A DNA stretch of 21,558 nt from a virus. Below are positions 2,551 to 19,923 of this stretch, in pieces. The stretch's first letter is position 1. Each line of letters starts with the position of its first letter. The notes beneath the pieces were generated by a model. The model saw only the letters and a program-made list of their open reading frames with translations, was not told the DNA's origin and did no database searches. Both the position numbers and the translations under genes were made by a program. Location: the IMG/VR virus record IMGVR_UViG_3300007541_000274, positions 1 through 21,558 of that record; one strand, given 5' to 3'.

Positions 2551-3312
2551 ATGCCGAACTATGAGCTATTAGAAATTCAAGACCCCGACAAGCTAAATAA
2601 GCTCAAGGCTGAGTGGGAGCCCAAGAAAGAGTATATTGAGAAAGATTTATGGGTCATCAGAAACTTTTTAACTGATGAAGAATTTGAGTGGCTTGATGCT
2701 CAGGCCAGGGACCCTGAAGGATGGTATCCTACAATGAGATCTGCATATGGCAATAACACAATGAATAAATTTTTGGGATATGTCCCTCAATACGGAGATG
2801 ATGGGGTCATGCTTCCTCCCCACCCCAGTATCAATCCTAAATTTGAAAAACCAGATTTTTTTCGAGATATCGAAGACAGGCTAGAAGCAGTTTTGCCAAA
2901 ATTCTTTTCTGGAGGCGGAGCCTTTCAATCACTATTTGAAGTGCCAGATGATCAAATCATTAAAGAGCTTGGCAAGAATGTTGACTACGCTATAAACTGG
3001 CATTACGAAAGAGATGATGAGGATTCAGAAGAAGACCAAAAGAGGGTATCTTTTACAGGAGTTAGTGCCGAAGCAAAGATTACAGGTTCTTTTAATATTT
3101 ATATTAATGATGATTTTGATGGCGGAATTCTTGAATTTCAAAACAAGCCTTACAAAATTAAGCCAGAACCTGGAATGCTAATTAACATACCCTTATATAA
3201 AGAATTTGAACACAGGGTAACAAAAGTTACTAACGGAAATAGGCACACAATTTACGGAAGATGCTGGGACAGCTTAGAGGGTTCGCACCTATCTTCCAGA
3301 GAGGACTGCTAA
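2551..3312 (+). CDS. putative 2OG/Fe(II) oxygenase with unusual HxE triad, 253 aa
   Basis: The C-terminal half has the order of a 2OG/Fe(II) oxygenase: a WHYERD segment (H151, E153, D155), a FNIYINDDFDGG strand-turn typical of P4H-like proteins, H221 and R231 ten residues on. The usual HxD reads H151-x-E153 here, although D155 could serve. The N-terminal third (DLWVIRNFLTDEEFEWL) matches the usual start of this fold. The first ATG after an extended -10 makes it leaderless. A small zinc-finger-like gene follows two bases after the stop. Catalytic competence is uncertain. The substrate is unknown. Confidence 0.7.
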   Translation: MPNYELLEIQDPDKLNKLKAEWEPKKEYIEKDLWVIRNFLTDEEFEWLDAQARDPEGWYPTMRSAYGNNTMNKFLGYVPQYGDDGVMLPPHPSINPKFEKPDFFRDIEDRLEAVLPKFFSGGGAFQSLFEVPDDQIIKELGKNVDYAINWHYERDDEDSEEDQKRVSFTGVSAEAKITGSFNIYINDDFDGGILEFQNKPYKIKPEPGMLINIPLYKEFEHRVTKVTNGNRHTIYGRCWDSLEGSHLSSREDC

Positions 3313-3314
3313 TT

Positions 3315-3494
3315 ATGAGTCTTGATGAGTCAGCAAACAGAAATATCGAGCTAATTAAAAAAATGAGAGAGAACCCTTGCCCTGAGGGAGACCACGAATA
3401 CACAGATCATATATTTGCTACAGATTCTATGGGAATAATGATGCATGTTATATGCAGCAAATGCTTAGATATGCAGGGATGGATTTATAGATAA
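3315..3494 (+). CDS. small putative zinc-binding protein, 59 aa
   Basis: ATG 3315 follows the oxygenase stop by two bases, with GAGG further upstream. A longer in-frame start at 3261 would lie deep in the oxygenase gene and is less likely. A CPxxxH segment near residue 20 and a CSKC pair near residue 49 could bind one metal ion. The 3' end overlaps the convergent oxygenase gene by 30 bases (3465-3494). Function unknown. Confidence 0.65.
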   Translation: MSLDESANRNIELIKKMRENPCPEGDHEYTDHIFATDSMGIMMHVICSKCLDMQGWIYR

Positions 3495-3998
3495 TTTCTG
3501 ATGAGTGTCTATGTCCAAAACAATTTGGTATCTGCTATCTTCAGATTCATTAATAAACCAGTGTGGTGCATAATGCTCTATCCAAAACAGGTCTCCCGAT
3601 TTTGGATGAATAATGTCTTTATTAATTTCAACCCTCATTTTTGACTTATTTAAGAAAAGCACAAACCTCAGCGTGCCCCAGGGATTGTCAATTCTACTAA
3701 CATAATCTTTAATAAACCTGTTATGACCAATTTCTGGGTCATAAACGTTATACTGGTCATAGTCTGCATGAACTACCCCAGGAAAATCGTAGTCAGCCTT
3801 AGAAACCTGAACTCTGCTTTCTCCAATGTTTGCTAGAAATTTTGTAGCAACATCTGCTAAGTCTTTAACTTCGGCGGGCCACTCAGAAAATGACAAAGAG
3901 TAGTACCCAGGCTCTGATTCATTCCACGTGATCGTTTTTTCAAGAGCCTGCACTGCTTCAAAAGAATCAAAACTAGACATTAACTTCCAGTAAGACAC
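3465..3998 (-). CDS. putative 2OG/Fe(II) oxygenase, 177 aa
   Basis: The triad is clear: H77-A-D79 in a VVHADYDQYN segment, H146 in APHWF and R156 ten residues later. The layout is closer to the aspartyl/asparaginyl hydroxylase-like or small phage oxygenases than to the P4H-like trio at 11-13 kb. The start is GTG 3998, whose G is also the last base of the methyltransferase stop (TAGTG). GGAGAG lies just upstream, which supports it over the internal ATG. Co-translation with the methyltransferase suggests a shared substrate or pathway. Confidence 0.75.
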   Translation of the reverse strand: MSYWKLMSSFDSFEAVQALEKTITWNESEPGYYSLSFSEWPAEVKDLADVATKFLANIGESRVQVSKADYDFPGVVHADYDQYNVYDPEIGHNRFIKDYVSRIDNPWGTLRFVLFLNKSKMRVEINKDIIHPKSGDLFWIEHYAPHWFINESEDSRYQIVLDIDTHQKLSINPSLHI

Positions 3999-4615
3999 TA
4001 ATCTCTCCAGTTGCTATTTAGATTAAAAAAGTTTTTGTAGTTTTGAAATGGCACAACATTCGGGTCCACCCACCAATCTTCATGGGGTAGTTTAGCAACA
4101 AGAGCATACCCAAAGGAGTCTAGTATTCTTCTTGATACGTCTCGTATCCAATCATTTTTAAAGTTTTGAATTAGGTTGTGCTCAAATGTAATAACCGAAA
4201 ACCTATACGTGTTTAACGGAACTGCAATAAGTGCTCTAAGACATCTTTCGTTGTCGCCGTCTTGACCTCTGTGATCATAACTATCTTCTATATCTAATTG
4301 TAAAAAATCAATTTGATTTGGAAAGCCCTGCTCTTTAAAATAATTGGCATAATCAAACGTTTGTGCATCTTGTAGTAAACATGGGTTAGAACGCAAGCTA
4401 TTAAACTCATTTACGAATGCTTCATCAATATCAAAAGAAACACCGTGCCACCCATGGTCTTTTTCTAAAACATAAGAGTTGTTGCCATCTTTATAGTGTC
4501 CAGCTCCTATTTCCACATAATATCTTGGACCAGAGCTTAGGTCTTGAGTGGTGGATAAAATATCTAAAACAAAGCTGGTTACTGTATGGTCTGGGTTAAA
4601 GGAGTTTTCTGTCAT
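3998..4615 (-). CDS. FkbM-like SAM-dependent methyltransferase, 205 aa
   Basis: The N-terminal half shows SAM-binding motif I (YYVEIGAGHYKDG, around residues 32-44), then a KDHGWHGVSFDID segment whose acidic end would bind the ribose, and a later FLQLDIED motif. This pattern is typical of FkbM-family O-methyltransferases, which often act on sugars or glycan-linked groups. The start is ATG 4615, six bases after TATAAT, so it is predicted leaderless. It overlaps the downstream oxygenase by one base and follows a GT61-like gene, which fits a glycan or hydroxyl-group modification role. The substrate is inferred only from context. Confidence 0.7.
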   Translation of the reverse strand: MTENSFNPDHTVTSFVLDILSTTQDLSSGPRYYVEIGAGHYKDGNNSYVLEKDHGWHGVSFDIDEAFVNEFNSLRSNPCLLQDAQTFDYANYFKEQGFPNQIDFLQLDIEDSYDHRGQDGDNERCLRALIAVPLNTYRFSVITFEHNLIQNFKNDWIRDVSRRILDSFGYALVAKLPHEDWWVDPNVVPFQNYKNFFNLNSNWRD

Positions 4616-4639: not shown

Positions 4640-5551
4640 CTATGATGCTGAAGCAATGCTTCTTATTTTTTGAATAATTAAATTAATATTTCTAGTATTG
4701 GGATACTCACGATAATCTAGCAAGTGATGCACGTTAGGGCTGACCATATCCATAGCATCGTGGTAGTTTGGTAACGGCCAGGCAGTGTCTGTGTTTATCA
4801 AAAATACTTCACAGTCTTCTCTAACAATAAATGCATTTGCAACTGAGGCTCCGACAAAAACAACCAGTCGCTTAGCATTAGCAACAGCCTCTAACTGCTC
4901 TTGAAACGAAGTCTCTCTATAATCAAGAACAACAAAGTCTTTAAACTCAGACTTAATTAATTCGTACTCTTCTTCAGTTAAATATCTGCTAGTTTTCTCC
5001 AGATCATCCAAAGTCTTTGGGCCACCGCTTGACATTATCTTGTCATATACTTCATTAACTTCTTCAGCCTTTCCGTCTCTTGAAACAAAGATATCTAGCC
5101 TATTGTCATCATTCTTGGAAATATTTGACAAGAAAAAGTGTCTTAGGTGTGGTATAACAAGGCTTAAATATTCATTATCTTGTAAAAGATCTTTCAGGTC
5201 ATTGTCTATTAGGTGATAAAAGTTAAAAAGTCTATTTGATATTACAGTTATGTTTTCAATATCTATGTGTCCATAGTCTGACAGCTTGATAGACGTATGC
5301 TCATAGTTTGCTTTAATTTTTTCTAAGCACCAGGTTGCGTATTCGGAAGAGTGGGTGCCTGGTTCTTGCTCAATAATAAGTAATTTTAAGTTTGGTATGG
5401 CACTTTTGAGATAAAGAAACTGCCCAATCTGATCTACCATAAAGTGGTAGTAAGTTTGCTCTTCAGCATTTATAATAAAGTAGTTTCCTTTTAGGCTAAG
5501 AGAGCTGTCCCCGCTTAAGCCTGGAATTGATACTTCGCTATACCTCTTCAA
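4640..5551 (-). CDS. GT61-like (DUF563) glycosyltransferase, 303 aa
   Basis: The protein carries the [FLY]YH..xD..[GA]QxLxL[KR] motif shared by all four GT61-like proteins here (YYHFMVDQIGQFLYLK, residues 34-49). Later come a VSRDGK segment, a YLTEEEYELIK helix and a C-terminal VGASVANAF loop. GT61 enzymes transfer sugars to proteins or polysaccharides. The donor is unknown. No ATG is suitable, so TTG 5551 is used with AGGA at good distance upstream, giving a 14-base overlap with the 57-residue gene. This copy has no fused N-terminal domain and belongs with the 16570 gene by its GA..xNA C-terminal motif. Confidence 0.7.
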   Translation of the reverse strand: MKRYSEVSIPGLSGDSSLSLKGNYFIINAEEQTYYHFMVDQIGQFLYLKSAIPNLKLLIIEQEPGTHSSEYATWCLEKIKANYEHTSIKLSDYGHIDIENITVISNRLFNFYHLIDNDLKDLLQDNEYLSLVIPHLRHFFLSNISKNDDNRLDIFVSRDGKAEEVNEVYDKIMSSGGPKTLDDLEKTSRYLTEEEYELIKSEFKDFVVLDYRETSFQEQLEAVANAKRLVVFVGASVANAFIVREDCEVFLINTDTAWPLPNYHDAMDMVSPNVHHLLDYREYPNTRNINLIIQKIRSIASAS

Positions 5552-5711: not shown

Positions 5712-5914
5712 TAAAACACCTCCTTCATGGAACATTCTAGGTGTAGTTCTGCAAATCGTCTTTCAACAATCCTAGTCGCTTTCTCGATGTCCGTTACCTT
5801 GGGTACCCAGACAATTCCGTCATCGCATACAACACATCTTTTAATAACGGTTGTTCCAGACGGCGAGACCTCTACTTGCAGCCCGTATTCTTTTTCTATT
5901 TTATCAGGATTCAT
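5711..5914 (-). CDS. hypothetical small protein, 67 aa
   Basis: ATG 5914 lies inside the end of the HExxH gene (11-base overlap). The stop is shared with the next start. A CVVCDDG pair near residue 27 and a later Cys could bind metal, but there is no second full pair. Function unknown. Confidence 0.65.
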   Translation of the reverse strand: MNPDKIEKEYGLQVEVSPSGTTVIKRCVVCDDGIVWVPKVTDIEKATRIVERRFAELHLECSMKEVF

Positions 5915-6248
5915 CTTTGATCCAATCTATTAGCTCTGGATTATCGTTAATAATCATTAATATTGCGTTTTCATAAATTCCAATAAAGTAATGTTCCCAG
6001 TCCTCGAAATCTGCCCTTCTTTTTGGTCTATTATTGTCAAATACCATTCTAGCAGCATGAAGGACTTCATGCAACAAGGTCACTCTTTGCTTAGATAGGC
6101 TAATATCACTTGCAACAACAATCAAATTCCCCTGGTCAAGGGTGTACCCATGCGAACCATCATTAAGCATGCCATCATTGTCTGTCTTACGAAACTCAAT
6201 CTTAAAGGTCTGAGGACCTATTTTGACCTTGCTTGGCTTACTCGTCAT
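5904..6248 (-). CDS. small HExxH putative metallopeptidase, 114 aa
   Basis: The signature LLHEVLHAA (H60-E61-x-x-H64) marks a zincin-type active site. Before it, KVKIGPQTFKIEF and a GYTLDQGNLIVVASD stretch follow the order of small phage HExxH proteins, where a beta-rich N-terminus precedes the metal helix. These are common in phages and have no assigned substrate. ATG 6248 was chosen over ATG 6269 because a separate small gene ends at 6251 and GGAAG is well placed. No signal peptide, so it is probably cytoplasmic. Confidence 0.7.
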   Translation of the reverse strand: MTSKPSKVKIGPQTFKIEFRKTDNDGMLNDGSHGYTLDQGNLIVVASDISLSKQRVTLLHEVLHAARMVFDNNRPKRRADFEDWEHYFIGIYENAILMIINDNPELIDWIKDES

Positions 6249-6250
6249 AG

Positions 6251-6412
6251 TTACTTCCAATCTTTCCATGCTCCACGATTTCTAAACCACACAAATACAT
6301 GGGTGCCAAAGTAAATATCTAAAGTTATTCTTTCAGGATGTGCGTATAGTGCAATGCCATAACGAACTTCGGGGTCCCACTCTTTATTGTTATAGTGCCT
6401 ATACTGCAGCAT
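6251..6412 (-). CDS. hypothetical protein, 53 aa
   Basis: ATG 6412 to TAA 6251-6253 fills the gap between the HExxH gene (2 bases away) and the 71-residue gene (14-base overlap), with GGGAAGAG before the start. The product is rich in aromatic residues, with a FGTHVFVWFRNRGAWKDW tail. It is unlike random sequence but matches no family I recognise. Confidence 0.65.
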   Translation of the reverse strand: MLQYRHYNNKEWDPEVRYGIALYAHPERITLDIYFGTHVFVWFRNRGAWKDWK

Positions 6413-6614
6413 GCTCTTCCCAGTCTCCCTTATACGAATAGTTTAGTCCATGCTCAATAGTATATACACAGATCTCATCTGGCTCTAAGTATTTGGTTTG
6501 CTTATCAGATGTGATAAGAAACATGCGGGTACCCTGGGGTATGGCAGTCTCAACATCCATATCTCTCATAAGATTAATATATGTATCACGCTTAGCTATT
6601 ACGAACTGTGACAT
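6399..6614 (-). CDS. hypothetical protein, 71 aa
   Basis: The start ATG 6614 is fused to the preceding stop (TAATG). The protein alternates short beta-like stretches (FVIAKRDTYINL, TRMFLITSD, EICVYTI), suggesting a small beta-barrel. The region coding its residues 4-6 contains an ATTACGAA site on the opposite strand. Function unknown. Confidence 0.65.
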   Translation of the reverse strand: MSQFVIAKRDTYINLMRDMDVETAIPQGTRMFLITSDKQTKYLEPDEICVYTIEHGLNYSYKGDWEEHAAV

Positions 6615-6721: not shown

Positions 6722-6744
6722 ACCTCTCTCCTGTTGATAATTCA

Positions 6745-6773
6745 ATTATACAGGACTCGTGATGCCCTGTCAA
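6745..6773 (-). promoter_or_regulatory. full-consensus sigma70 promoter, leadered
   Basis: TTGACA (6773-6768), 17 bases, TATAAT (6750-6745). Unlike the leaderless set, it yields a leader of about 17 bases containing AGGAG, and probably drives the leftward chain from 6721 down through the overlapping small genes. Confidence 0.85.
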
Positions 6774-6804
6774 GCACCAGCCAAAACTTGTTGTGCCAGG
6801 AAGT

Positions 6805-7175: not shown

Positions 7176-7733
7176 CTATAGCTTAAATGTTATGTCATTA
7201 GTTAAAAAAATTGGTAAAGCATATCTATCTTGAGAAATACTTTTTACTTGATGCATATATGCATCGGTAGATGGAAATAAGATAAGGTCTCCAGCCTTCT
7301 GGCGAACAGTATAATTAAATTGTGTAAACTCCAGGAATCCGTCTGCAATCATATCATTTAGGTAAAAAACTCCACTATATGTGCAGTGAGGATTGCTTCC
7401 GTTGTCCTGGTCGTAATGAATTGGTATGCTTGCCCCTGGCCCCTGCTTGGTTAAAAAGAAGTTTGATACATACAGCTTACTTGAAGAATAAAGCTCTTCT
7501 GCCTTTGCTTCTGCACGTGCAAATAAATTACGAACCACTGGCTCTATGTCAGAAACTGGCTCAAGAGTGCGAGGACTATTTGATCCTGGGATGTTGTCAA
7601 TTCCCATAGTGAGTTGCCATCGCTTGGCCTGCTCAGAAAATGTTAGCTTATCAATATTATTATTAATATAGTCTATATAAAATTTACACTCATCTTGAGA
7701 ACAAAAATTATTTATTATAAATATTTGATCCAA
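7176..7733 (-). CDS. putative 2OG/Fe(II) oxygenase, 185 aa
   Basis: Triad H106-Y-D108 in IPIHYDQDNG, H161 in YMHQVKS and R170 in DRYALP are all present at standard spacing. GVFYLND and KAGDLILFPS are the usual core strands of P4H-type (2OG-FeII_Oxy) proteins. No ATG fits: TTG 7733 begins right after the previous stop and has GGAGAG upstream. The first residues (IFIINNFCSQDEC) match the normal N-terminus of the fold, so little is missing. It lacks the 50-residue insert present in the 11-13 kb trio. The substrate is unknown. Confidence 0.78.
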   Translation of the reverse strand: MDQIFIINNFCSQDECKFYIDYINNNIDKLTFSEQAKRWQLTMGIDNIPGSNSPRTLEPVSDIEPVVRNLFARAEAKAEELYSSSKLYVSNFFLTKQGPGASIPIHYDQDNGSNPHCTYSGVFYLNDMIADGFLEFTQFNYTVRQKAGDLILFPSTDAYMHQVKSISQDRYALPIFLTNDITFKL

Positions 7734-9186: not shown

Positions 9187-9238
9187 GGCCCCAGTCAGTT
9201 GGTGGACTGGGAAGAGTTTATTGGGACTGGCTGGGGTC
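9187..9238 (+). ncRNA. candidate structured small RNA (hairpin, partly tRNA-like)
   Basis: GGCCCCAGTCAG (9187-9198) pairs with CTGGCTGGGGTC (9227-9238): 12 pairs including two G-U, with a 28-base loop. An alternative fold has a 7-bp acceptor-like stem (GGCCCCA/TGGGGTC) and a D-arm-like AGTC-AGTTGGTG-GACT. No anticodon or T arm fits in the remaining bases, so it is not a tRNA. The 5' end coincides with the predicted transcription start. It overlaps the 3' end of the leftward GDPD-like gene, so it could also act as an antisense or 3'-end structure. A 20-codon frame from ATG 9185 is an alternative reading. Confidence 0.35.
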
Positions 9239-9679
9239 AAATTCTAATGGGTAGTCCGTGCACACACCCCAAAAATCTATTAAGTCATTACGACTAGCAT
9301 TAAATATCTCTGGCAAAACAGCAATTGATCTACGAGTAGGCTTCATGTGTGGGTAGGTCCAGGAGTACCCCCAGCTAGTGAGAGTATAGTCATCGCTTTG
9401 ATGCCAGAAAAAATTTGGTTTTAAAAAATGTCTGTCAAAATACTCTAAAGCTTCTACATTTTTGCAGTGAAGCCAGGACTTTGTAACTATTTCTCTAAAT
9501 GTTTTATTATCGAGCACGTATGCTGGCCCATCATGCCCAGTAAATAGCTGGCCATCGTGATACCAAATATCTACTTCAACATCGTATCCCAGAACAATTG
9601 CTTCTTTAAGATATTCGGGATCATTTTCCTTAGCAGGATTTGGGCCTGCTAAATTTCCTCTATGTGCAATAATTCTCAT
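9218..9679 (-). CDS. GDPD-like phosphodiesterase, 153 aa
   Basis: The N-terminus has the glycerophosphodiester phosphodiesterase pattern: AHRGN (H6, R7), EVDIWYHDG (E35, D37) and a GHD with H49. These supply the metal ligands and the catalytic His pair of the PI-PLC-like TIM barrel. At 153 residues it is shorter than usual GDPD enzymes (about 240). Similar short versions occur beside surface-polysaccharide genes, where they may act on phosphodiester-linked glycans. ATG 9679 follows the Rossmann-GT61 stop by one base, with GGAGGAG upstream, so the two are co-expressed. The substrate is unknown. Confidence 0.75.
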   Translation of the reverse strand: MRIIAHRGNLAGPNPAKENDPEYLKEAIVLGYDVEVDIWYHDGQLFTGHDGPAYVLDNKTFREIVTKSWLHCKNVEALEYFDRHFLKPNFFWHQSDDYTLTSWGYSWTYPHMKPTRRSIAVLPEIFNASRNDLIDFWGVCTDYPLEFDPSQSQ

Positions 9680-9680: not shown

Positions 9681-11120
9681 TTATAGCTCCTCCTCCATTG
9701 CCCTTAAAGAATCCATGACCAGTTCAATGTTGCCCTTAATATAGCGTCCGTCGCAATTAAGACGCAAAACATTTGAATGAGCAAATCCATATTTTTCGCT
9801 TAAATTTATCATTACAAAAATAGCATCTTCTTTTGCATATACAGAATGTGCTGAATTAGAGCCAGCAAGGCTAGCCAGGTGTGTGCAATTAGCTACCAGA
9901 CTTACTTGATCACTAAAAGGTATTTTCATAGGATCAACTATTAGGTAACCTTTATTCTTAAAAAACTTTTCAATCATCAAAACATCTTTTGATAAAAAAT
10001 TTCTTCCAGAATCTTTCCACTTGCCAGGTGGGATTTGTAAAAATATTTTTTTATTTGGCGACTCACTCGCAATTATTTTATCCTTAAATGCTTCCCTAAG
10101 TGTTGGGCCAACTATATTTTGCCACGATGCTTCTGTAAAAATTGGCAGCTTTAATTTTTGTTTTTGCATTTCTCTTTTTAGCCAGACGTTGCTGGGGTTA
10201 CGAAGCCAGACTAAATTTTTTACTTTTATTTGTTGATATTTTGGAATTCTTTGTTTCATTATTTCAAACCCAAACATTTTGCATAGAGATTGCATTAGGT
10301 TGCCAGGCTCTGGGTCGTAGTAAACCGCTAAGACCCTCAGTTCTGGCAATAATTGTTTTAAGTAAAGGGCCTGGCCAATCTCATCAAAAAGACTATGGTA
10401 TAAAGAGCCACAGTCTCCGCTCAGAAAAAGAACTGGTCTATCGTCTTCAATAATAAATGGAGCTACGGATACGCTATTGTTAATTATGCCAGTATTAAAT
10501 GCTGATTGCATAATTTTAACTATGGTAGCATCTTTAGTAGTTTTAATTGAATGCTGTGTTTGTGCTGCATTTAAATCTGCAACAATAACCTTTGCCGTTG
10601 CTCTTCCATCAGCACCACGAAATTGTACAACATCGTTTATATCAACAAGCGATATAGAATCATGGTCTAAAAAGAGATCTTTATATCCCGACTTGCCATT
10701 ATTATCTGCTGTTAAAGAATTGAGAATTAGTTTTGCACCAGAATCTTTAAAGTCTTGACAAGTTTGTACAATTTCCTGTAAATGTTTTACCCAAACGTCT
10801 TTGCTACAAGAGATAACTGTTTTGCCTGATGTAAGACAATCTAAAATAAACTGTCTTGCAGCATCTGTATCATCTATTGCCTCTATAACAACATTAACAG
10901 ATTCATTCATTGATATCTCGCTTAGGGATGTAATCCACAGCGTAGATTCTCTAAATTTTTCAGGTATTGTACCGATAGCTCTTGGCCTTTTAGTCGCTAC
11001 AAAAATAAGGTTTATACTTTTTAAATCAACAAGTTCTAAAAAATTCATCCCTACCTGTCCTGCTCCTGCTAATGCGACAGAAATTTTAGGGTTGTCCAGT
11101 GTACTGTGATTTAAAGCCAA
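9681..11120 (-). CDS. Rossmann (homoserine-dehydrogenase-like)-GT61 fusion, 479 aa
   Basis: Residues about 12-190 form an NAD(P)-binding domain: G19-x-G21-x-x-G24, then VVIEAIDDTDAARQF and SGKTVISCSKD, in the order seen in homoserine/aspartate dehydrogenases, but the dehydrogenase catalytic domain is absent. Residues about 195-479 are GT61-like: LYHSLFDEIGQALYLK (240-255), a YLIVDP strand (392-397) and GSNSAHS (420-426). The pairing suggests sugar oxidation or binding coupled to transfer. TTG 11120 has GAGG upstream and follows the oxygenase stop by three bases. The GSNSxHS motif groups it with the 17789 fusion rather than with the stand-alone copies. Confidence 0.7.
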   Translation of the reverse strand: MALNHSTLDNPKISVALAGAGQVGMNFLELVDLKSINLIFVATKRPRAIGTIPEKFRESTLWITSLSEISMNESVNVVIEAIDDTDAARQFILDCLTSGKTVISCSKDVWVKHLQEIVQTCQDFKDSGAKLILNSLTADNNGKSGYKDLFLDHDSISLVDINDVVQFRGADGRATAKVIVADLNAAQTQHSIKTTKDATIVKIMQSAFNTGIINNSVSVAPFIIEDDRPVLFLSGDCGSLYHSLFDEIGQALYLKQLLPELRVLAVYYDPEPGNLMQSLCKMFGFEIMKQRIPKYQQIKVKNLVWLRNPSNVWLKREMQKQKLKLPIFTEASWQNIVGPTLREAFKDKIIASESPNKKIFLQIPPGKWKDSGRNFLSKDVLMIEKFFKNKGYLIVDPMKIPFSDQVSLVANCTHLASLAGSNSAHSVYAKEDAIFVMINLSEKYGFAHSNVLRLNCDGRYIKGNIELVMDSLRAMEEEL

Positions 11121-11123: not shown

Positions 11124-11807
11124 CTATTCCTCAACTTTTTTATGAACACGGTTTATTTCAATTTCACCCTTCCAGGCTTTCTCTTCGTATCCACGAGTCC
11201 AAACAAAGTTAGCAATAGCATACCTAGTTGGTCCTGGCTCAACCACACCCACTCCGTGTAGGTAGTCTCTACCCGTAGGGAAAATAATAAGGCTTCCAGC
11301 TCGTGGCTCTATTGTCAAATTTCTTTTTGGGAAGTAAAGCCTTCCCCCATTAAAATCATCATTAATATAAAATACTGCTGCATATCGCAAGTGCTCGGAA
11401 GTTTCTGCGTCAATATGTTCAGCAAGACTTGCTCCAGGATAGTGACGCTGAATGCCCACCAGTGCCGTGGCCTCAAGGTCATCAGTTAAAAAATCTTGAA
11501 TTCTTCGTGCAAAAACATGAGGCAACTCTCCCTGTAGCTGAAGAGTCCTGTCAATCCACTCTTCATTAATATCAATAAGCCCCTCAGCAATTAAGTTATC
11601 TACATCATCTCTACCAAACTTTTGCAATCCCTCTTGCTTTATTGTTTCTAGATATCTAGCACTCCACTCTTCTTCTGTTGCAGAAACACAAAAATTGTAG
11701 CAAAAAGCAAGCTCTTCTGCAGTTGCAAAATTATGAATGTAGTAGATGTCTGTATCAAGCCGTTCCCAATTAAAGCCGAGATCATTTAGTTTTTCTGTAA
11801 TTACCAT
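11124..11807 (-). CDS. P4H-like 2OG/Fe(II) oxygenase, 227 aa
   Basis: The C-terminal half is a clear prolyl-4-hydroxylase-type domain: RHYPGASLAEHIDAE (H131, D133), AVFYINDDFNGG, a LIIFPTG strand, LHGV (H184) and GPTRYAI (R195). The N-terminal ~100 residues contain a KFGRDDVDNLIAEGL segment shared with the two neighbouring oxygenases, so all three arose by tandem duplication. ATG 11807 is six bases after a TATAAT that lies in the last codons and stop of the gene upstream. An apparent earlier start would translate the promoter. It is followed at three bases by the Rossmann-GT61 gene. Confidence 0.85.
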   Translation of the reverse strand: MVITEKLNDLGFNWERLDTDIYYIHNFATAEELAFCYNFCVSATEEEWSARYLETIKQEGLQKFGRDDVDNLIAEGLIDINEEWIDRTLQLQGELPHVFARRIQDFLTDDLEATALVGIQRHYPGASLAEHIDAETSEHLRYAAVFYINDDFNGGRLYFPKRNLTIEPRAGSLIIFPTGRDYLHGVGVVEPGPTRYAIANFVWTRGYEEKAWKGEIEINRVHKKVEE

Positions 11808-11813
11808 AAAACA

Positions 11814-11819
11814 ATTATA
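11814..11819 (-). promoter_or_regulatory. leaderless promoter embedded in a stop codon region
   Basis: TATAAT (11819-11814) follows GTG, and its first bases contain the TAA stop of the upstream oxygenase. Six bases to ATG 11807. Confidence 0.75.
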
Positions 11820-12432
11820 CACTATCAGAAAATATAAAACCCGTCAGAGCATACCTAGTGGGACCTGGCTCAACCAAAGAAACCCCGTGCAAATATTGAT
11901 CACCAGTTGGAAAAATTGCCAATGCCCCTGTGACTGGGCGAATGGTAGCTCCCAGTTTAGGAAAATACAAGTTCCCGCCATTAAAATTGTCATTTAGGTA
12001 TATAACACAGGCATATATTAGTGAAGAATCATGCTCAGCATCAACATGTTCTTTTAAAAAAGATCCAGGGTAGTGTCTTTGCACCGTTCTCATCGGCTCT
12101 AATGCTGTTTTAGTTTTAAACAATGCCTGAATATCTTGCGAAATTTGCATAGCAACATCTTCATTAATTTCAATAGACTTATCTACCCAGTCGCTATTCA
12201 TTGTCATAAGATTTTCATCTACGTATTTTTGATAATCGCTGTCGCCAAATTTTTGTAGAGCCTCTCTCTTTAAACCATCAACATAGTCTTTGCCCCAATC
12301 TTCTTCTTTCGCACTGGCGATTGTAGAGAGACAATAGTTTAAATTATCTTTTGACAAAAAATTTTTAATTAAAAGTATGTCATTACCAAAATTAACAACA
12401 TCATACTTTTTAAGCTGCTTTGCCTTTATCAT
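11815..12432 (-). CDS. P4H-like 2OG/Fe(II) oxygenase, 205 aa
   Basis: Same architecture as its neighbour: H129-V-D131 in a KEHVDAEHD segment, a YLNDNFNGG turn, LHGV (H182) and GPTRYAL (R193). The N-terminal KFGDSDYQKYVDENL segment is a more diverged form of the trio's shared helix. Start ATG 12432 lies inside the HNH gene (23-base overlap). TTG 12444 is possible, but no good Shine-Dalgarno separates them. It shares more with 11124-11807 than with 12721-13431 (EPGPTRYA and YFPK kept). Confidence 0.83.
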   Translation of the reverse strand: MIKAKQLKKYDVVNFGNDILLIKNFLSKDNLNYCLSTIASAKEEDWGKDYVDGLKREALQKFGDSDYQKYVDENLMTMNSDWVDKSIEINEDVAMQISQDIQALFKTKTALEPMRTVQRHYPGSFLKEHVDAEHDSSLIYACVIYLNDNFNGGNLYFPKLGATIRPVTGALAIFPTGDQYLHGVSLVEPGPTRYALTGFIFSDSV

Positions 12433-12709
12433 TATGCTGCCCAAATTCTCTCATATATGTTCTTATTTTGTGACAGTTTGAACAAACAACGTCGCATTTT
12501 TTAACCTCTTCCCAGGCAGCCTCTGGTCCCTGATTACGAAGAACCCGATATACAACATCTATTTTAACACATTCTGGTCTGTGATCAAACTCTAGAACAT
12601 AGTGGGGGAACTTGTTGTGACAATCAGAGCAGCCGTGAGCCTCTTTATACAAGTGAAGTTCGTGTAAAGTTTTAGAAAATTCTTTGCGAAATCCTGCACC
12701 CTTTATCAT
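12410..12709 (-). CDS. HNH endonuclease, 99 aa
   Basis: A zinc-framed HNH fold is visible: C27-x-x-C30, the EFDHRP core (H43), then C76-x-x-C79-H80. The size fits small phage HNH proteins, which may be free-standing homing endonucleases or packaging-associated nickases. Here it sits between two tandem oxygenase paralogs, far from any terminase in view, so homing is the more likely role. It overlaps the downstream oxygenase by 23 bases and starts 11 bases after the upstream one without a clear ribosome site, suggesting translational reinitiation. An ATTACGAA site lies opposite its codons for R-N. Confidence 0.8.
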   Translation of the reverse strand: MIKGAGFRKEFSKTLHELHLYKEAHGCSDCHNKFPHYVLEFDHRPECVKIDVVYRVLRNQGPEAAWEEVKKCDVVCSNCHKIRTYMREFGQHNDKGKAA

Positions 12710-12720: not shown

Positions 12721-13431
12721 TTAAGGCACGTATTTAGTATCATCTAAAGTTTTATCTACGTTATAATTATTTTTTTGGTGCTTGTCCCAGAAACCTTTTC
12801 TAGAAATAAAGCCAGGAATAATATACCTGTGGGGCCCTGGCCCAGGAGCATTTACTCCGTGCCTCCAATCCTCGCTTGTTGGAAAAACAAGGAGATCACC
12901 TGGATCTGGACGCAACTGAATATCCTGTTTGACAAAATAAACCTCTCCGTCAGTGTAATTATCATTTAAGTAAAAAACAGCTGCATATTCTAGAGATGGG
13001 TCTGTGTGATTATCAACATGGTCTTTAAGTGGAACACCCTCATATTGACGCTGAATTGTGCCACACCCATTAAAGTGAAGATCATCTCTAAAGTCAAACA
13101 CTTCTTGTGCCCTCTTGTTAAGAGTTGTGGCCAAATCCCAGTTTGCAATTTTAAGATTTTTGTCATTCCAATTATGGGTTAATTCATAAAGGCCCTCTGC
13201 AACTAAATTATCGATGTCAGTTCTTCCAAACTTAACTTTGGCAAGATTGATTGCACCCTCAAGATAGTGGTGCTCCCATTCTTCCTGAGTTGCATTCTCT
13301 GCCTGATTTATAATTTCTTCAATTTCTTCAGGCTTAGTGAAGTTTTTAATTAGAAAAATTCTGTAATCAACAACCTCTACCTCATAGCCCAGCGACTCGA
13401 TATACTCTTTAGTTAAAATAATTTCACTCAT
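12721..13431 (-). CDS. P4H-like 2OG/Fe(II) oxygenase, 236 aa
   Basis: The first of the tandem trio in transcription order. H138-V-D140 in LKDHVDNH, AVFYLNDNY, a LLVFPTSED strand, RHGV (H191) and GPHRYII (R202) complete the triad and the 2OG ligand. It keeps the KFGRTDIDNLVAEGL N-terminal segment. A 30-residue tail (KGFWDKHQKNNY...) is not present in the second copy. ATG 13431 is six bases after TATAAT (leaderless). The earlier ATG/GTG reads through the promoter. P4H-family members hydroxylate Pro, Lys or free substrates. Which applies here is unknown. Confidence 0.83.
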   Translation of the reverse strand: MSEIILTKEYIESLGYEVEVVDYRIFLIKNFTKPEEIEEIINQAENATQEEWEHHYLEGAINLAKVKFGRTDIDNLVAEGLYELTHNWNDKNLKIANWDLATTLNKRAQEVFDFRDDLHFNGCGTIQRQYEGVPLKDHVDNHTDPSLEYAAVFYLNDNYTDGEVYFVKQDIQLRPDPGDLLVFPTSEDWRHGVNAPGPGPHRYIIPGFISRKGFWDKHQKNNYNVDKTLDDTKYVP

Positions 13432-13437
13432 GTGTAT

Positions 13438-13443
13438 ATTATA
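13438..13443 (-). promoter_or_regulatory. leaderless promoter -10
   Basis: GTGTATAAT with hexamer 13443-13438, directly after the stop of the lipoprotein gene. Six bases to ATG 13431. A plus-strand TATAAT lies at the -35 position (13461-13466). Confidence 0.75.
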
Positions 13444-13445
13444 CA

Positions 13446-14885
13446 CTATTTGGATATCTGTATAATATTCTTAGAAAGAATCTTTATAGTAAATCCAGTA
13501 GTATTGGGAATAGTCCCAGACTTAAAGTTAAAGTTATTATTTCCACCGCCGTCAAAGGTGCCTGGTTTTCTAATATAGTTCCACCAGTTCTTTCTATCCT
13601 CATATTCTTGAGGCCCACAAGAGTCGCACCTATTGCTTGGCTTTGAGGTATCGAGGTTGTAAGCAGTAATTCCATGCCTTAATTCGGATAGGGTACTAAA
13701 CTTTCCATCAGTTCGATATTCAACTACGGTTGCGGTTGTTTCACCAGTTCTAAGAATGACGCTTTTAATGCCAGGAGATGCTCCCAATGCGTCCAAAGAT
13801 TCTACTTGAATTATAGAAGTTGCAAACTGTTTCCTTGCATCAATACATACAATATCATCTGAGTCTAACCAGCCAGCCAAAAAGCTGGGCCAGGATAATA
13901 CAGACAACGACTGGTTCCATTGTCCCATCATAACTCCATAGGCAGATCCGTTAGCAGGACCATGACCAATAAATCCTTGGTCATGTAAAATTTCATGGAC
14001 AAGGTGACTCCAAATCTTGTTGGGTTCTCCAGCGTAGGTAAAGACACGAGAAATAAGCTGGCCCTCATCAGTGTTGGCAATGCCAGGGCCATACATGTCT
14101 GCCCCCAGCTCGAAGTGAGCTTTTTCTGGAACAACAAAGTATACGAAATGAGTTTTTGAAAAATCATAATATGGATCTGCCACGCTTATCCAGTCTTGCA
14201 TTTGAGCATACTCAGCGTAGTCGTTTCTCTTTGGATACTCTGTTGCCTTTTTAGGTGCACGAAGCCATTCCGTATGGATTGAAATGTTATATGTCATTTT
14301 GCCGTCAGAGTAAAAGTTAGACCATGACCTTGCAAAATCAAAGTATTTTTTATAAGTTGATAAAGAGCTCATTCCGCTAGAGGTAGCATCAGAAAAATCA
14401 ATTGGAATTACAGCAACATTTACGATTCCAGAGTAAGGAACGTCGTTATTTCTAATTGGAAAGCCCTTAGAGTGTGGTCCAGTCCAGGTATATTCAGGAA
14501 TTTTGCAAAGATCAACGTTATCTACAAAAGAAACGGTGTCGTATACTGCCTCAGGCTCTTTTGTAGGCTCTGACGGCTTCTCAGAGGCCGTAGGCGATGG
14601 CTCTGGGGCACTAGACTCTACGGGCTTAGGCTCCTGCTTTGCTGGAGCAGACTCTTCTGGACTAGATACACCTAGAGACTCTGAAGTTTCAACTGCTGGA
14701 GACTCTGAAGGCTCATAAAATGTACTATCATTTTGTGTTTGATTATCTTGTTTGTGATCATTTGTGGGCAAAACATTTGTAGGTCTTGCTTCTGCTACAA
14801 TTTCGTTTGCTGTCTCATTTACGCTAGTGGTGCTGCACCCAGATAGAAGTGCAACACCTATCATACCCACTATAAATTTTTTCAT
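13446..14885 (-). CDS. secreted M6-like zinc metalloprotease lipoprotein, 479 aa
   Basis: The N-terminus is a lipoprotein signal: MKKF, a hydrophobic stretch, then lipobox LSGC with the lipidated C17. Residues about 35-113 are a Ser/Pro/Glu-rich low-complexity spacer as used to cross a cell wall. The following domain opens with IVNVAVIPIDFSDA, has HLVHEILH (H297-E298, H301) with H308 as likely third ligand, and a SWPSFLAGWL segment, all in the order of M6 (immune inhibitor A-like) peptidases. ATG 14885 overlaps the preceding stop. A wall-anchored surface protease is unusual cargo for a phage. It may trim surface proteins or receptors. Family placement is by motif only. Confidence 0.75.
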   Translation of the reverse strand: MKKFIVGMIGVALLSGCSTTSVNETANEIVAEARPTNVLPTNDHKQDNQTQNDSTFYEPSESPAVETSESLGVSSPEESAPAKQEPKPVESSAPEPSPTASEKPSEPTKEPEAVYDTVSFVDNVDLCKIPEYTWTGPHSKGFPIRNNDVPYSGIVNVAVIPIDFSDATSSGMSSLSTYKKYFDFARSWSNFYSDGKMTYNISIHTEWLRAPKKATEYPKRNDYAEYAQMQDWISVADPYYDFSKTHFVYFVVPEKAHFELGADMYGPGIANTDEGQLISRVFTYAGEPNKIWSHLVHEILHDQGFIGHGPANGSAYGVMMGQWNQSLSVLSWPSFLAGWLDSDDIVCIDARKQFATSIIQVESLDALGASPGIKSVILRTGETTATVVEYRTDGKFSTLSELRHGITAYNLDTSKPSNRCDSCGPQEYEDRKNWWNYIRKPGTFDGGGNNNFNFKSGTIPNTTGFTIKILSKNIIQISK

Positions 14886-16051: not shown

Positions 16052-16205
16052 GATTATCCTCCATAATTGTTATGTATCCGCCACAGCGAACATATCTGTC
16101 TCCACCATCTACAAAAGACTTGCCACACTTACATCGTACAAAGTCATGGCGGTGCATTGACTGGATGACATCATCACATAAATTACAAACACATTTAGGT
16201 CCCAT
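16035..16205 (-). CDS. small zinc-ribbon protein, 56 aa
   Basis: The cysteines form CVCNLC near the N-terminus and CKCG plus a later single Cys in YVRCGGY, enough for one or two zinc sites. ATG 16205 is exactly six bases after TATAAT. A second ATG at 16211 touches the hexamer and is unlikely. A consensus TTGACA sits 18 bases upstream of the hexamer. No family is recognised. Confidence 0.68.
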   Translation of the reverse strand: MGPKCVCNLCDDVIQSMHRHDFVRCKCGKSFVDGGDRYVRCGGYITIMEDNLVKKN

Positions 16206-16211
16206 ACCCAT

Positions 16212-16241
16212 ATTATACACCCTCTCAGGGCCTAGTGTCAA
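16212..16241 (-). promoter_or_regulatory. leaderless promoter with consensus -35
   Basis: TTGACA (16241-16236, including the nrdH stop TGA), 18 bases, TATAAT (16217-16212), six bases to ATG 16205. Confidence 0.85.
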
Positions 16242-16459
16242 GCAGCCAGAAGGCTAATTTTATCTGGCTGAAAACCTGACCAGGAGCCGTTGGTGGTAAT
16301 AACCACTGGGACAGCTTGATATCCCATATTAACAATCTTAGTATACGCAGCCTCATCTTGTGTTATGTCTACTGTTTCGTAATTAATTCCTAAGTTATCC
16401 ATCAGTCTTTTTGTAGCGTCACACTGAACACACGCTGGCTTTGTATACACCGTTGTCAT
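16238..16459 (-). CDS. nrdH: NrdH-type glutaredoxin-like protein, 73 aa
   Basis: C10-V-Q-C13 is the redox pair, AVPVV holds the cis-Pro turn, and WSGFQPDKI near the C-terminus is the NrdH signature. NrdH supplies electrons to class Ib ribonucleotide reductase and is reduced by thioredoxin reductase. Phages often carry it to raise dNTP supply, although no reductase gene is in view. ATG 16459 has AGGAG eight bases upstream on a leader from the TATAAT at 16499-16494, so it is expressed differently from the leaderless gene downstream. Confidence 0.88.
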   Translation of the reverse strand: MTTVYTKPACVQCDATKRLMDNLGINYETVDITQDEAAYTKIVNMGYQAVPVVITTNGSWSGFQPDKISLLAA

Positions 16460-16493
16460 ATAATATTCTCCTTTTATTAAATTGAATGGACCA

Positions 16494-16499
16494 ATTATA
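16494..16499 (-). promoter_or_regulatory. -10 box for leadered nrdH transcript
   Basis: TATAAT (16499-16494) gives a leader of about 28 bases with AGGAG. No clear -35 box. It is divergent from the promoter at 16558. Confidence 0.6.
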
Positions 16500-16557
16500 C
16501 CTCATATTTTGCTTCAGAAACTGGCGTATTTATAACGTTTTGATTAAGCTTGCGTGG

Positions 16558-16563
16558 TATAAT
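16558..16563 (+). promoter_or_regulatory. leaderless promoter, extended -10
   Basis: TGGTATAAT, six bases, ATG 16570. It heads the four-gene rightward operon. No -35 consensus. Confidence 0.75.
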
Positions 16564-16569
16564 TTATAT

Positions 16570-17787
16570 ATGTCTGCCCTTGAATTTACTGCTTCTTATG
16601 ATGAGGTATTAACCAACAAAGTTTGGGATAATGGACTTAGTAATATAGATGGATCTGAATCTCCTGAAAACCTTTATCTCCATGAGATCAGCAATGTTTT
16701 TTTTAATAAAACATCTTATCCAGAATTTACTAGAGAGTACTCAAGAACAATTGGCGGACCATCTTTTTTTGTAGGGATATATGAAAGTCAATTTTATCAC
16801 TTCATGTGTGATGGGCTTGCACAGTACCTTTGGCTAAGAACATTTATTCCAGAAATAAAAATATATTTTGTTAATGATCAGCCAGGTGCGGTTGATGAGC
16901 TTGCAAAAACTCAAAAAGATTTTGTGTCTACCGTCATTCAATGGTGCCAGGAGGAGGGCTTTGGTGGAGAAGTAATAAATCTTTGTACATATAAAAAGCT
17001 AAAGGTAGACAAGCTATTCTTGCTGGCAAACTCAAACATTACTTTTTTAAGGGAAAAGATTTCTGAAATATCTATACCGCTACTGGCAGATGTTTTAAAT
17101 GGAAGTGGAAGCAGACTGCTAATGCTTCCCCTTCTCAAAGAGTTTATTTATAAAAAAGCACTTGAGCATAATAGGCTGCCAGAAGACTTTAATTATCCCA
17201 CCAGAGTATTTGTGCGACCTGGATTAACAATAGAAAGACTTCAGGCATGGCATGATCAAATTAAATACTTTGAAAAAAACAATGTTGTTTTTGACAAAGA
17301 TTTAAATATTGTTTCTGACCCCAAGGGCGTTGCTGCTGAGGTAATAAACATAGATTATTGGAGACATACAATTGATTTGACTAATGCTGGTTCAATGCGT
17401 GGGGTGGTGGCAGAGCTTGGGGAAAGATACCTTTCTCCTGAAGAAGTTTTGGCAATAGATAACTTTTTTAAAAGAAGAGACTATTTCTTCTTAGACTCAC
17501 AAGAGCTATCTTGGGTAGACATGCTAAATATGATTATTCGTGCAGAAAAAGTTGCTCTAATATCTGGGGCTGCAATTCTTAATGCTATAATCGCTGAAAG
17601 CAGCACCCAAATTGTTTATTTAGAGCCGAATACTACCTATCAATTTAATCACCTTGAGACCCTAGACTTATTTTTTAAAGAAGTAAAGCCTATAATTTAT
17701 TATGATCAAAGAGAAGTTTTGAGGAAAAAGTTTGACATTAACAGGCTTCTTAGCGATCTAGAAAAAGAAAAAGGAGATTTTTTATAA
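16570..17787 (+). CDS. GT61-like glycosyltransferase, 405 aa
   Basis: The GT61-like motif FYHFMCDGLAQYLWLR (residues 75-90) is followed by a VFVRPG segment, a YLSPEEVLAIDNFF helix, and SGAAILNAI near the C-terminus. The leaderless start at 16570 removes 28 residues of a longer open frame that would cross the promoter. It differs from the 303-residue copy by an N-terminal extension of ~60 residues and inserts of about 60 residues in the middle. It leads the operon with the nucleotidyltransferase-GT61 fusion, so the two may add successive sugars. Cytoplasmic, with no signal peptide or membrane helix. Confidence 0.7.
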   Translation: MSALEFTASYDEVLTNKVWDNGLSNIDGSESPENLYLHEISNVFFNKTSYPEFTREYSRTIGGPSFFVGIYESQFYHFMCDGLAQYLWLRTFIPEIKIYFVNDQPGAVDELAKTQKDFVSTVIQWCQEEGFGGEVINLCTYKKLKVDKLFLLANSNITFLREKISEISIPLLADVLNGSGSRLLMLPLLKEFIYKKALEHNRLPEDFNYPTRVFVRPGLTIERLQAWHDQIKYFEKNNVVFDKDLNIVSDPKGVAAEVINIDYWRHTIDLTNAGSMRGVVAELGERYLSPEEVLAIDNFFKRRDYFFLDSQELSWVDMLNMIIRAEKVALISGAAILNAIIAESSTQIVYLEPNTTYQFNHLETLDLFFKEVKPIIYYDQREVLRKKFDINRLLSDLEKEKGDFL

Positions 17788-17788
17788 A

Positions 17789-19447
17789 ATGCCCACAGTA
17801 ATTATTCCCATGGCAGGAAAAGGAAGTCGTTTTTCAAATGCGGGATACAGCCTTCCAAAGCCCCTTGTAAAAGTAGCTGGCAAAACGCTGGCAGAAATAG
17901 CCATTAAAACTTTGGGTCTGCCTGATTGGCATTTTGTTTTTATTACAAAAAGTTTTGAAAACTCTGAGCACAACGAAATGCTTACAGAAATTTTTACAAA
18001 AAACTGTAAGTCTTTTACAGAAGTGCGAATAGACGATGAGCATTTAGGTGCAGCACATTCAGCACTATATGCTGAAAAATATTTACAACTAGATGACGAG
18101 CTTATTATTACCAATTGTGACCAGGCCCTGAAGTGGGACCCAGAGCTGTTTCTAAGGGAGGTAAGGCATCAGGGTGCCTATGGTGCAGTAGTTGTTTATA
18201 CATCAAACGATCCGAATCATAGTTACGCACAAATTAAAGAAAATAGAATAGTTAAGCTTGCAGAAAAAGAAGTTATTAGCGATACTGCTTTAATTGGAGT
18301 TCACTACTGGAAAAAAGCAAAAGACTTTTTTGACACAGCAAGAAAGCTACTGGCTGAGTATAAGGATTTAGGATATAAAGAGCCGTACGTATCTCTTACC
18401 TACAATTATCTTCTTATTAATAAGCCAGTTGTGCCTTACATCTTCCATGGCTCTGAAAGATATTACAGCCTGGGAACTCCAAGCGACATAGATAACTATT
18501 TAAATATGGGAGAAAAGGTCAGGCTACATTTTGATGAGATTAGGCACACCGCCAAGGTTGGCGATGTAGTATCTGTTAGTGGCACAATTCCATATAGCAT
18601 ATTAAAAGATGTTGAGATTAAGATGCCCTCTAGAGGGGACGAAGAAAAATATCTTGAAAATGTTTTTTTGTTTAACGCTAATGAAAAGAGTTTTTATCAT
18701 GGCCTGTGCGACGTTGTCGGACAGTGGCTTGCCCTTAAAAAGCTTACGCAAACTGATATTAGTCCGCTGTATCTTGAAATAAATTCTGATATTTCTTTTA
18801 ATAACATACAGCCCTTTATGAAAGAGTTGCTGGACCTTGGAATAGTAAACTTACTAACAGTCGATGACACAGTCGGCAGAGTTAAGATTAAAAATCTTTT
18901 TGTAATTTCCCCACGAGACTATTCATTGTTTTATAAGTTATTTATGGACTATATTCCTCAAATCTTAACCGAAGAAAGCCACCCTGGAAATCCTGAATAT
19001 ATTAAACTTCTTTTGGGAAGCTCCTCAAAAGAAATTTTAGATAATCTTTCAGTGCAAGACAATACTCAAAAAAATAATAAAGTATTTTTTCATGCCTCCA
19101 ACAATAAGGTAGGGACTGGCTCATTGGACATCGACGAAACTCACAATCGTTTTGCCAGCAAGGATGAGTACGAGGCTGTTGTTAAATTATTTACAGATGA
19201 TGGATATGAGGTAGTTGATCCTGAGCGACTAAGCGTTGCTGATCAAATCAATATTGTTAGAAAAGCTTCACACATAGCAACAATTAAAGGCTCAAATAGC
19301 GTTCACAGTGCATTTGCCTCTTCAGATACAGTATTTACGATGATTAATTTAAAAAAAGAAAACACATTTCCACATGAAGTAATCGTAAGTTCTTTTATTG
19401 AAAATCCAATTTTTATTGACAAGACGGGAAGCAATGAAAACTTATAG
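17789..19447 (+). CDS. sugar nucleotidyltransferase-GT61 fusion, 552 aa
   Basis: Residues 1-~240 are a sugar-phosphate nucleotidyltransferase domain: IIPMAGKGSRF (5-15) binds the nucleotide, PKPLVKVAGK (23-32) follows, and NCDQ (109-112) supplies a likely metal Asp; the rest keeps the family order to SLGTPSDIDNYL. Residues ~290-552 are GT61-like: FYHGLCDVVGQWLALK (302-317), YEVVDPERL and GSNSVHS (501-507). One polypeptide could thus activate a sugar and transfer it. The start is ATG 17789 one base after the previous stop, with AGGAG 12 bases upstream. The upstream gene's tail supplies that site. The GSNSxHS motif matches the Rossmann fusion. Confidence 0.78.
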   Translation: MPTVIIPMAGKGSRFSNAGYSLPKPLVKVAGKTLAEIAIKTLGLPDWHFVFITKSFENSEHNEMLTEIFTKNCKSFTEVRIDDEHLGAAHSALYAEKYLQLDDELIITNCDQALKWDPELFLREVRHQGAYGAVVVYTSNDPNHSYAQIKENRIVKLAEKEVISDTALIGVHYWKKAKDFFDTARKLLAEYKDLGYKEPYVSLTYNYLLINKPVVPYIFHGSERYYSLGTPSDIDNYLNMGEKVRLHFDEIRHTAKVGDVVSVSGTIPYSILKDVEIKMPSRGDEEKYLENVFLFNANEKSFYHGLCDVVGQWLALKKLTQTDISPLYLEINSDISFNNIQPFMKELLDLGIVNLLTVDDTVGRVKIKNLFVISPRDYSLFYKLFMDYIPQILTEESHPGNPEYIKLLLGSSSKEILDNLSVQDNTQKNNKVFFHASNNKVGTGSLDIDETHNRFASKDEYEAVVKLFTDDGYEVVDPERLSVADQINIVRKASHIATIKGSNSVHSAFASSDTVFTMINLKKENTFPHEVIVSSFIENPIFIDKTGSNENL

Positions 19448-19775
19448 AATTGAAAACAGTATTGGCGGATGGTATGTTGGTAATTTTCCCAATGCTGCCT
19501 ATCAAACAAAGGGCCTAGAGGTATCTTTTAAAATACACAAGCAGGGTGAAAACTGGGATTGGCACTATCATGAGCATTTAGACGAAATTAACTTGCTCAT
19601 TAGGGGAACAATGATTATTCAAGGAAAGAAACTGGTGCCAGGAGATATCTTTATTCTTGAGCCCCTGGAAATAGCAGACCCAGATTTTTTAGAGGACTGT
19701 GAAATTGTTTGTGTTAAAGTTCCTAATTTTACTAATGATAAAGTTGTTGTAAGGAGAGACCGTGAATCTAGATGA
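19434..19775 (+). CDS. small cupin protein, 113 aa
   Basis: Cupin motif 1 is perfect: G38, five residues, H44-Y-H46, four residues, E51, six residues, G58. Motif 2 has VPGDIFILEP but lacks its usual His. The lone beta-barrel could bind metal and act as a sugar isomerase/epimerase, or sense a metabolite. ATG 19434 lies 14 bases inside the fusion gene with GGGAAG before it. An earlier in-frame start at 19398 is deeper in that gene and lacks support. The operon position next to sugar activation favours a sugar-related role. Confidence 0.75.
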   Translation: MKTYRIENSIGGWYVGNFPNAAYQTKGLEVSFKIHKQGENWDWHYHEHLDEINLLIRGTMIIQGKKLVPGDIFILEPLEIADPDFLEDCEIVCVKVPNFTNDKVVVRRDRESR

Positions 19776-19923
19776 CAAGATTAAAAATATTTTATTTGAA
19801 ATAGGCAAAGACATTAAGATTCATAAAATTGATAGAGATAATACAATTATAGAAATTGATTACGACAAGTACGTTTTAAAACTAAAAGGTCTTATCCAAG
19901 CAGAGATCGAAGAGCAAACTTAG
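19762..19923 (+). CDS. hypothetical protein, 53 aa
   Basis: GTG 19762 has GGAG five bases upstream and lies inside the end of the cupin gene. The frame ends at TAG 19921-19923. The sequence is helical with alternating Lys/Ile/Asp. No family is recognised. It overlaps the end of the convergent thioredoxin-like gene by 32 bases. Confidence 0.6.
   Translation: MNLDDKIKNILFEIGKDIKIHKIDRDNTIIEIDYDKYVLKLKGLIQAEIEEQT

Follow-up and report, generated by a model that had tools for sequence, protein, structure and literature searches.

Prolyl-hydroxylase-like oxygenases and GT61-like domains share a gene island in an uncultured, probable actinophage

The IMG/VR virus record IMGVR_UViG_3300007541_000274, a genome fragment of 21,558 bases that was analysed in its entirety (the window), carries an island in which predicted 2-oxoglutarate (2OG)/Fe(II) oxygenases are interspersed with glycosyltransferase (GT) domains of the GT61 type (Table 1). 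An earlier note, made from the sequence alone, had described seven such oxygenases and four GT61-like domains in this DNA, and had proposed that the phage hydroxylates and then glycosylates virion proteins or a host surface polymer. Related viral records are referred to below by handles beginning with L or G.

Table 1. Genes of the oxygenase-glycosyltransferase island, in window coordinates (P4H, prolyl 4-hydroxylase; AF2, AlphaFold2).
Feature	Coordinates	Strand	Assignment and support
2OG_a	1860..2438	-	probable 2OG-Fe(II) oxygenase; H90/D92/H136; PHROG 2954 E 9e-9; no Pfam match
2OG_b	2551..3312	+	HxE variant H151/E153/H221; PF13640 23.9 bits, cut-off 27; PHROG 61
2OG_c	3465..3998	-	possible 2OG/cupin-fold oxygenase; H77/D79/H146, R156; motif only; weak cupin match E 0.06
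FkbM-like methyltransferase	3998..4615	-	family A8, conserved in 2OG-bearing phages; 1-nt overlap with 2OG_c
GT61_1	4640..5551	-	stand-alone GT61; PF04577 E 2e-8, above cut-off; AF2 model matches POMGNT2
2OG_d	7176..7733	-	2OG-Fe(II) oxygenase; H106/D108/H161; PF13640 30.7 bits, above cut-off
GDPD-like short protein	9218..9679	-	PHROG 34507 E 3e-27; HRG/E-x-D/HD motifs by eye; relative in L231 E 8e-37
NAD_binding_3-GT61 fusion	9681..11120	-	PF03447 and PF04577, both above cut-off; NAD part aligned with L019, L029
2OG_e	11124..11822	-	P4H-like; PF13640 E 4e-11; family A6; H136/D138/H189
2OG_f	11815..12444	-	P4H-like; PF13640 E 2e-12; H133/D135/H186; structure modelled
2OG_g	12721..13446	-	P4H-like; PF13640 E 3e-9; H143/D145/H196
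GT61_3	16486..17787	+	diverged GT61 domain; PF04577 E 0.06 only; common motif and alignment
Sugar nucleotidyltransferase (NTP)-GT61 fusion	17789..19447	+	PF00483 E 1e-9, PF04577 E 2e-9; PDB 4evw pyrophosphorylase E 2e-11
Cupin-like protein, sugar module	19398..19775	+	PHROG 24762 E 1e-25; weak PDB cupin match E 0.03

All seven HxD/E...H triads put forward in the earlier note were found in the sequence, and their numbering was exact for 2OG_a to 2OG_d while being 4-5 residues low for 2OG_e, 2OG_f and 2OG_g, because a start 4-5 residues downstream of the first start codon had been used. The assignment of the seven genes to the 2OG/Fe(II) oxygenases held at profile level for 2OG_d to 2OG_g, which pass PF13640; 2OG_b stays below the threshold and gave no useful PDB match, and 2OG_a and 2OG_c are without a Pfam 2OG match, the profile support for the former coming from PHROG 2954/3531 only. 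A loose HxD/E..H..R pattern occurs in 8 of the 20 open reading frames (ORFs) that are 120 aa or longer, GT61_1 being among the eight, compared with an expectation of 2.5 and a maximum of 8 in 500 shuffles. Across an alignment of 34 family members, H133, D135 and H186 do not vary, and the conservation of R197 reaches at least 90%. PF13640 was matched above cut-off four times in the 21.6-kb window versus twice in the 1.68 Mb of 48 arbitrary viral contigs, the oxygenase density of the window being far above that of these contigs. PHROG families labelled 'ferrochelatase' (2954, 3531) and 'DNA endonuclease' (2297, 274) match 2OG oxygenases here; these labels are possibly erroneous, with potential consequences for the ferrochelatase-2OG pairing reported in pelagiphages (PMC9599517).

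Concerning the type of oxygenase, the profile of family A6 and the model of 2OG_f both point to prolyl hydroxylases, in agreement with the P4H-type activity invoked earlier. The best PDB matches of the A6 profile were prolyl 3-hydroxylase 1 and a bacterial prolyl 4-hydroxylase, with PHD2, LH3 and the procollagen lysyl hydroxylase/glycosyltransferase entry 6ax6 also being matched. 2OG_f, the only oxygenase modelled, adopts a P4H-type double-stranded beta-helix fold in its model (pLDDT 94), and its best PDB matches in a fold search were prolyl 4-hydroxylases, including those of B. anthracis and the viral collagen P4H of PBCV-1. The TM-scores against prolyl 4-hydroxylases were approximately 0.55, and this evidence therefore applies at the level of the family rather than of the substrate. 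Profile and predicted fold thus support the island oxygenases as prolyl-hydroxylase-like. In a tree with weak deep branches, 2OG_g groups with genes of other phages (L025/L031/L034).

The motif [FLY]YHxxxDxx[GA]QxLxL[KR], which the earlier note had described for the four GT61-like domains, is present in all four, and three of them pass PF04577, whereas GT61_3 falls below the cut-off. The AF2 model of GT61_1 (pLDDT 70, pTM 0.70) matches POMGNT2 (E 7e-7), a protein O-glycosyltransferase of GT61, and membership of this family is therefore supported by predicted fold for that copy; phage GT61 proteins are also present in BFVD. An N-R-R UDP-binding set and a catalytic-base His have been described for eukaryotic GT61 enzymes, and proteobacterial GT61 proteins are without the Asn (PMC13123520). 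When the window copies were inspected by eye, the His was found in four of four, the Asn in none and the first Arg in one or two of the four; loss of the Asn does not exclude GT61 membership, since the proteobacterial proteins also lack it. GT61 is rare in Actinomycetota (4 of 246 genomes), so that the island GT61s do not obviously derive from a widespread host gene. Scans of viral contigs with the GT61 alignment and with single proteins returned the overlapping contig described below or nothing, and a scan of genomes with the alignment found nothing.

The two enzyme classes lie among each other, as the earlier note had observed. 2OG_f overlaps 2OG_e by 8 nt, 3 bp separate the latter from the NAD-GT61 fusion and 1 bp separates this fusion from the GDPD-like gene, all four forming one tight operon. 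The complete minus-strand order is RibA, DUF2061, lipoprotein, 2OG_g, HNH-like ORF, 2OG_f, 2OG_e, NAD-GT61 and GDPD, neighbouring genes either overlapping or being no more than about 21 bp apart, and this tight spacing suggests that the run is carried on a single transcript. On the plus strand, GT61_3, the NTP-GT61 fusion and the cupin-like gene make up a further operon. The methyltransferase, nucleotidyltransferase, cupin and GDPD-like protein that had been listed among the island genes are likewise present, although on differing bases: the first is FkbM-like through its relatives (PF05050 is matched by 2 of 8 members of family A8, best E 1e-18, the window copy being unmatched and giving no useful PDB match), the second through Pfam, the third through PHROG and a weak PDB match, and the fourth through motif and PHROG, with no GDPD Pfam or PDB match. 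A cupin-like gene also follows an NTP gene in L231. Within the minus-strand run, the lipoprotein (13446-14885), which overlaps 2OG_g by 1 base, bears a metallopeptidase-like HEILH motif (by eye) and is distantly related to proteins in 15 of 396 Actinomycetota genomes, and the ORF at 12410-12709 between 2OG_g and 2OG_f is HNH-like by motif only.

Oxygenases and transferases are further linked in other phages. The NAD domain of the window's GT61 fusion recurs in L029 as a fusion with a 2OG domain, and in L019 and L072 as a stand-alone protein encoded directly behind a 2OG gene. PF11397, which we take to be GT60, is absent from the window and from G001 and was found in 7 of 27 related records, representing approximately three lineages. 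In L089 a PF11397 gene and a 2OG gene confirmed by Pfam overlap each other, and in L091, L092, L098 and L105 2OG and GT60-like genes lie close together, upstream of portal-like and prohead-protease-like genes (the latter two by resemblance to L050). PF13640 occurs in 8 of 18 further GT60 contigs versus 1 of 48 arbitrary viral contigs (Fisher p 6e-5, inflated by related contigs and with habitat unmatched), and, among contigs selected through GT60 or the NAD domain, GT61 occurs in 3 of 10 versus 0 of 40 arbitrary contigs (p 0.006). Contig G421 holds NTP, GT61, 2OG and a 2OG-NAD pair, and G430 keeps NTP, cupin, GDPD and two GT61s together, PF13640 being absent. Polypeptide GlcNAc-transferases of the PF11397/GT60 type include the Skp1 hydroxyproline enzyme (PMC8724618, PMC6939170); PF11397 in a phage context was found in none of the matches listed in the open-licence full-text literature. 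NodU/TobZ-type carbamoyltransferase genes were also noted beside 2OG, NAD-domain or GT60 genes, at L019:7459-8904 (by Pfam) and L107:397-1836 (by sequence resemblance only).

The family of 2OG_e, 2OG_f and 2OG_g is common to 30 viral loci, and runs of 5-7 oxygenase genes occur in L023, L029, L044, L045, L048 and L050. The arrays of L044, L045, L048 and L050 lie between tail-type/fn3 proteins and a LamG-type protein, which is followed by portal and prohead protease genes; the setting in L023 is similar, with a 1132-aa neighbour that has no Pfam match. No GT2 partner scored above cut-off in 21 records. Among the 2OG and GT60 genes, small 'PEWY' proteins (PHROG 7084/DUF6065-like) are a repeated feature (L050:6951-9152, L048:9319-10735, L091:2623-4768).

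With regard to the origin of the island, contig IMGVR_UViG_3300025646_009126 (30,607 bases) overlaps window positions 5821-21558 at 99.9% identity and adds 14.9 kb, giving about 36 kb of phage sequence. Besides ribonucleotide reductase genes and an eighth oxygenase flanked by tRNA genes, this extension encodes a lysin, a catalase-peroxidase and, as judged by eye, a WhiB-like protein. The uncultured phage is probably an actinophage, an actinobacterial host being indicated by the WhiB-like protein and the NrdE/F/H set (class Ib ribonucleotide reductase); a KatG scan returned distant bacteria only, at 51-55% identity, so that the host call rests on those genes. A megablast of the window against phage records gave no match, and neither did searches of those records with GT61_1 and the lipoprotein. 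The island region also encodes a glutathione peroxidase, a GTP cyclohydrolase II and an NrdH-like glutaredoxin (8139-8753, 15107-15715 and 16238-16459, respectively). A catalase-peroxidase (KatG) gene is likewise present within a phage contig at L010:4807-7008, and an LLM-type monooxygenase-like gene at L010:8476-9264 partially matches alkanesulfonate monooxygenase models; KatG-matching records in the phage collection bear Salmonella, Escherichia or Acinetobacter labels and appear to be host DNA, and viral katG has been reported by an estuary study.

The gene families, the fold, the operon layout, the shared NAD-domain fusion and the recurrence in other phages are observed, and these data favour a joint oxygenase-glycosyltransferase role and lean toward protein substrates. 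We tentatively propose, with confidence somewhat short of even, that the island is a phage-encoded modification system in which P4H-like hydroxylation is followed by glycosylation of phage proteins. The oxygenases would hydroxylate side chains (probably Pro or Lys) in proteins that the phage itself makes, tail proteins or adhesins being the likeliest, and the glycosyltransferases (GT61 here, GT60/PF11397 in relatives) would then glycosylate the same proteins, with sugar supplied by the phage's own nucleotidyltransferase-cupin-GDPD module and with the NAD domain and the FkbM-like methyltransferase acting in the same pathway. That the substrate is a protein, that this protein belongs to the virion and that hydroxylation comes before glycosylation are the steps that we infer. 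The hydroxylate-then-glycosylate proposal of the earlier note is thereby upheld in part: the P4H-like and GT61 folds, the common operon, the NAD-fusion link and the pairings with GT60 and structural modules in relatives agree with it, while several findings weigh against it. The 22 further 2OG-array contigs tested first lack GT61, and the oxygenases therefore do not need it. Collagen-like proteins had been named as a substrate to look for, yet no run of at least six GXY was found in the window, G001, the relatives or the 36 kb, which represent an incomplete genome, and no tail gene was recognised anywhere in those 36 kb. The first UDP-binding Arg is missing (by eye) from the two fusion GT61 copies, and since the His is kept in all copies and the Asn lost, GT61 activity is plausible but not assured. 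The GT60 and NAD contigs represent few independent lineages, so that the p-values overstate the association, and the gene paired with GT60 in L025/L031/L034 resembles a 2OG oxygenase by motif only, a profile comparison (13% probability) having failed to confirm it. Furthermore, glycans and small molecules are also among the substrates of GT61 and 2OG enzymes.

A strong rival, which we consider somewhat less probable than this proposal, is that the sugar module and the GT61s build or remodel a host or virion surface glycan, while the 2OG enzymes, the NAD protein and the methyltransferase tailor sugars and not proteins; in relatives such tailoring would extend to the carbamoyltransferase and a short-chain dehydrogenase/reductase, both of which occur among 2OG genes there. 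The nucleotidyltransferase fusion, cupin and GDPD genes of the window, the grouping of NTP-HAD, cupin, GDPD and two GT61s in G430 and the large sugar clusters in which related NTP genes sit in cyanophages (PMC3037559) are all consistent with this explanation, but the 2OG family is nearest to peptidyl hydroxylases and the arrays of relatives are situated within virion modules that contain neither GT61 nor GT2.

Considerably less probable is an action of the oxygenases on host proteins or on 2OG/succinate metabolism, the proximity of the glycosyltransferases then reflecting a variable region only. Although 2OG genes are common in cyanophages and have been linked to nitrogen metabolism (PMC3037559), PDB entry 5v7y (a bacterial P4H reported to modify EF-Tu) is among the 2OG_f matches and the region holds many stress genes, such a role fits poorly with the tight 2OG-NAD-GT61 operon and the fusion evidence, and the 5-7 diverse copies per array exceed the need of one host target. 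DNA hypermodification, in which TET/JBP-like oxygenases would hydroxylate bases for subsequent glycosylation, appears very improbable and was rejected, as the Tet_JBP match of 2OG_f (E 0.03) and the Tet-like structures at the tail of the A6 profile matches are far weaker than the prolyl hydroxylase matches, the methyltransferase is FkbM-like and inspection of the 36 kb revealed no DNA cytosine methyltransferase.

Returning to hydroxylation followed by glycosylation of phage proteins, its parts can be compared with known systems. T4-like cyanophages carry up to five 2OG-Fe(II) oxygenases per genome (PMC3037559) and HTVC023P-type pelagiphages eight non-orthologous 2OG types (PMC9599517), and these sets resemble the present one in comprising several short, diverse genes, sometimes close together; here, however, one putative actinophage carries 7-8 copies within about 36 kb, of which several adjoin each other and share an operon with a GT61 fusion. 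Cyanophage sugar/LPS clusters (S-SM2, S-SKS1, B23) similarly place a related sugar nucleotidyltransferase domain beside other sugar genes, but match the nucleotidyltransferase half only, which in the window forms a fusion with GT61 and lies among 2OG genes. PF04577, the POMGNT2 fold match and the fully retained catalytic-base His are shared with known GT61 proteins (POMGNT2, EOGT, plant xylosyl/arabinosyltransferases and phage GT61), from which the island copies differ in not keeping the Asn of N-R-R (PMC13123520) and in their fusions to NAD and NTP domains. The pair in L089 recalls the Skp1 prolyl hydroxylase and GT60 GlcNAc-transferase of Dictyostelium and Toxoplasma (PMC8724618, PMC6939170), although the L089 genes belong to a phage and the window itself has GT61 and no GT60. 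Fold and profile matches likewise recall collagen modification (the PBCV-1 prolyl 4-hydroxylase; 6ax6), in which the lysyl enzymes tie hydroxylation to glycosylation, whereas here no collagen-like repeat was found, the genes are separate and other GT families are involved.

Oxygenase arrays and phage glycan islands are each already known; what is new is their coupling. Aquatic phages, including actinophages, might encode the hydroxylation and subsequent glycosylation of their own tail and adhesin proteins, analogous to the eukaryotic modification of Skp1 and collagen, with hydroxyproline- or hydroxylysine-linked glycans added by GT60 or GT61, a generalisation that we regard as doubtful at present. 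The recurrent pairing with protein-type glycosyltransferases and the place in structural modules of relatives suggest modification of phage surface proteins as a role for the 2OG oxygenases of aquatic phages. If true, tailed phages would carry hydroxylysine- or hydroxyproline-linked glycans, which could affect adsorption and host range.

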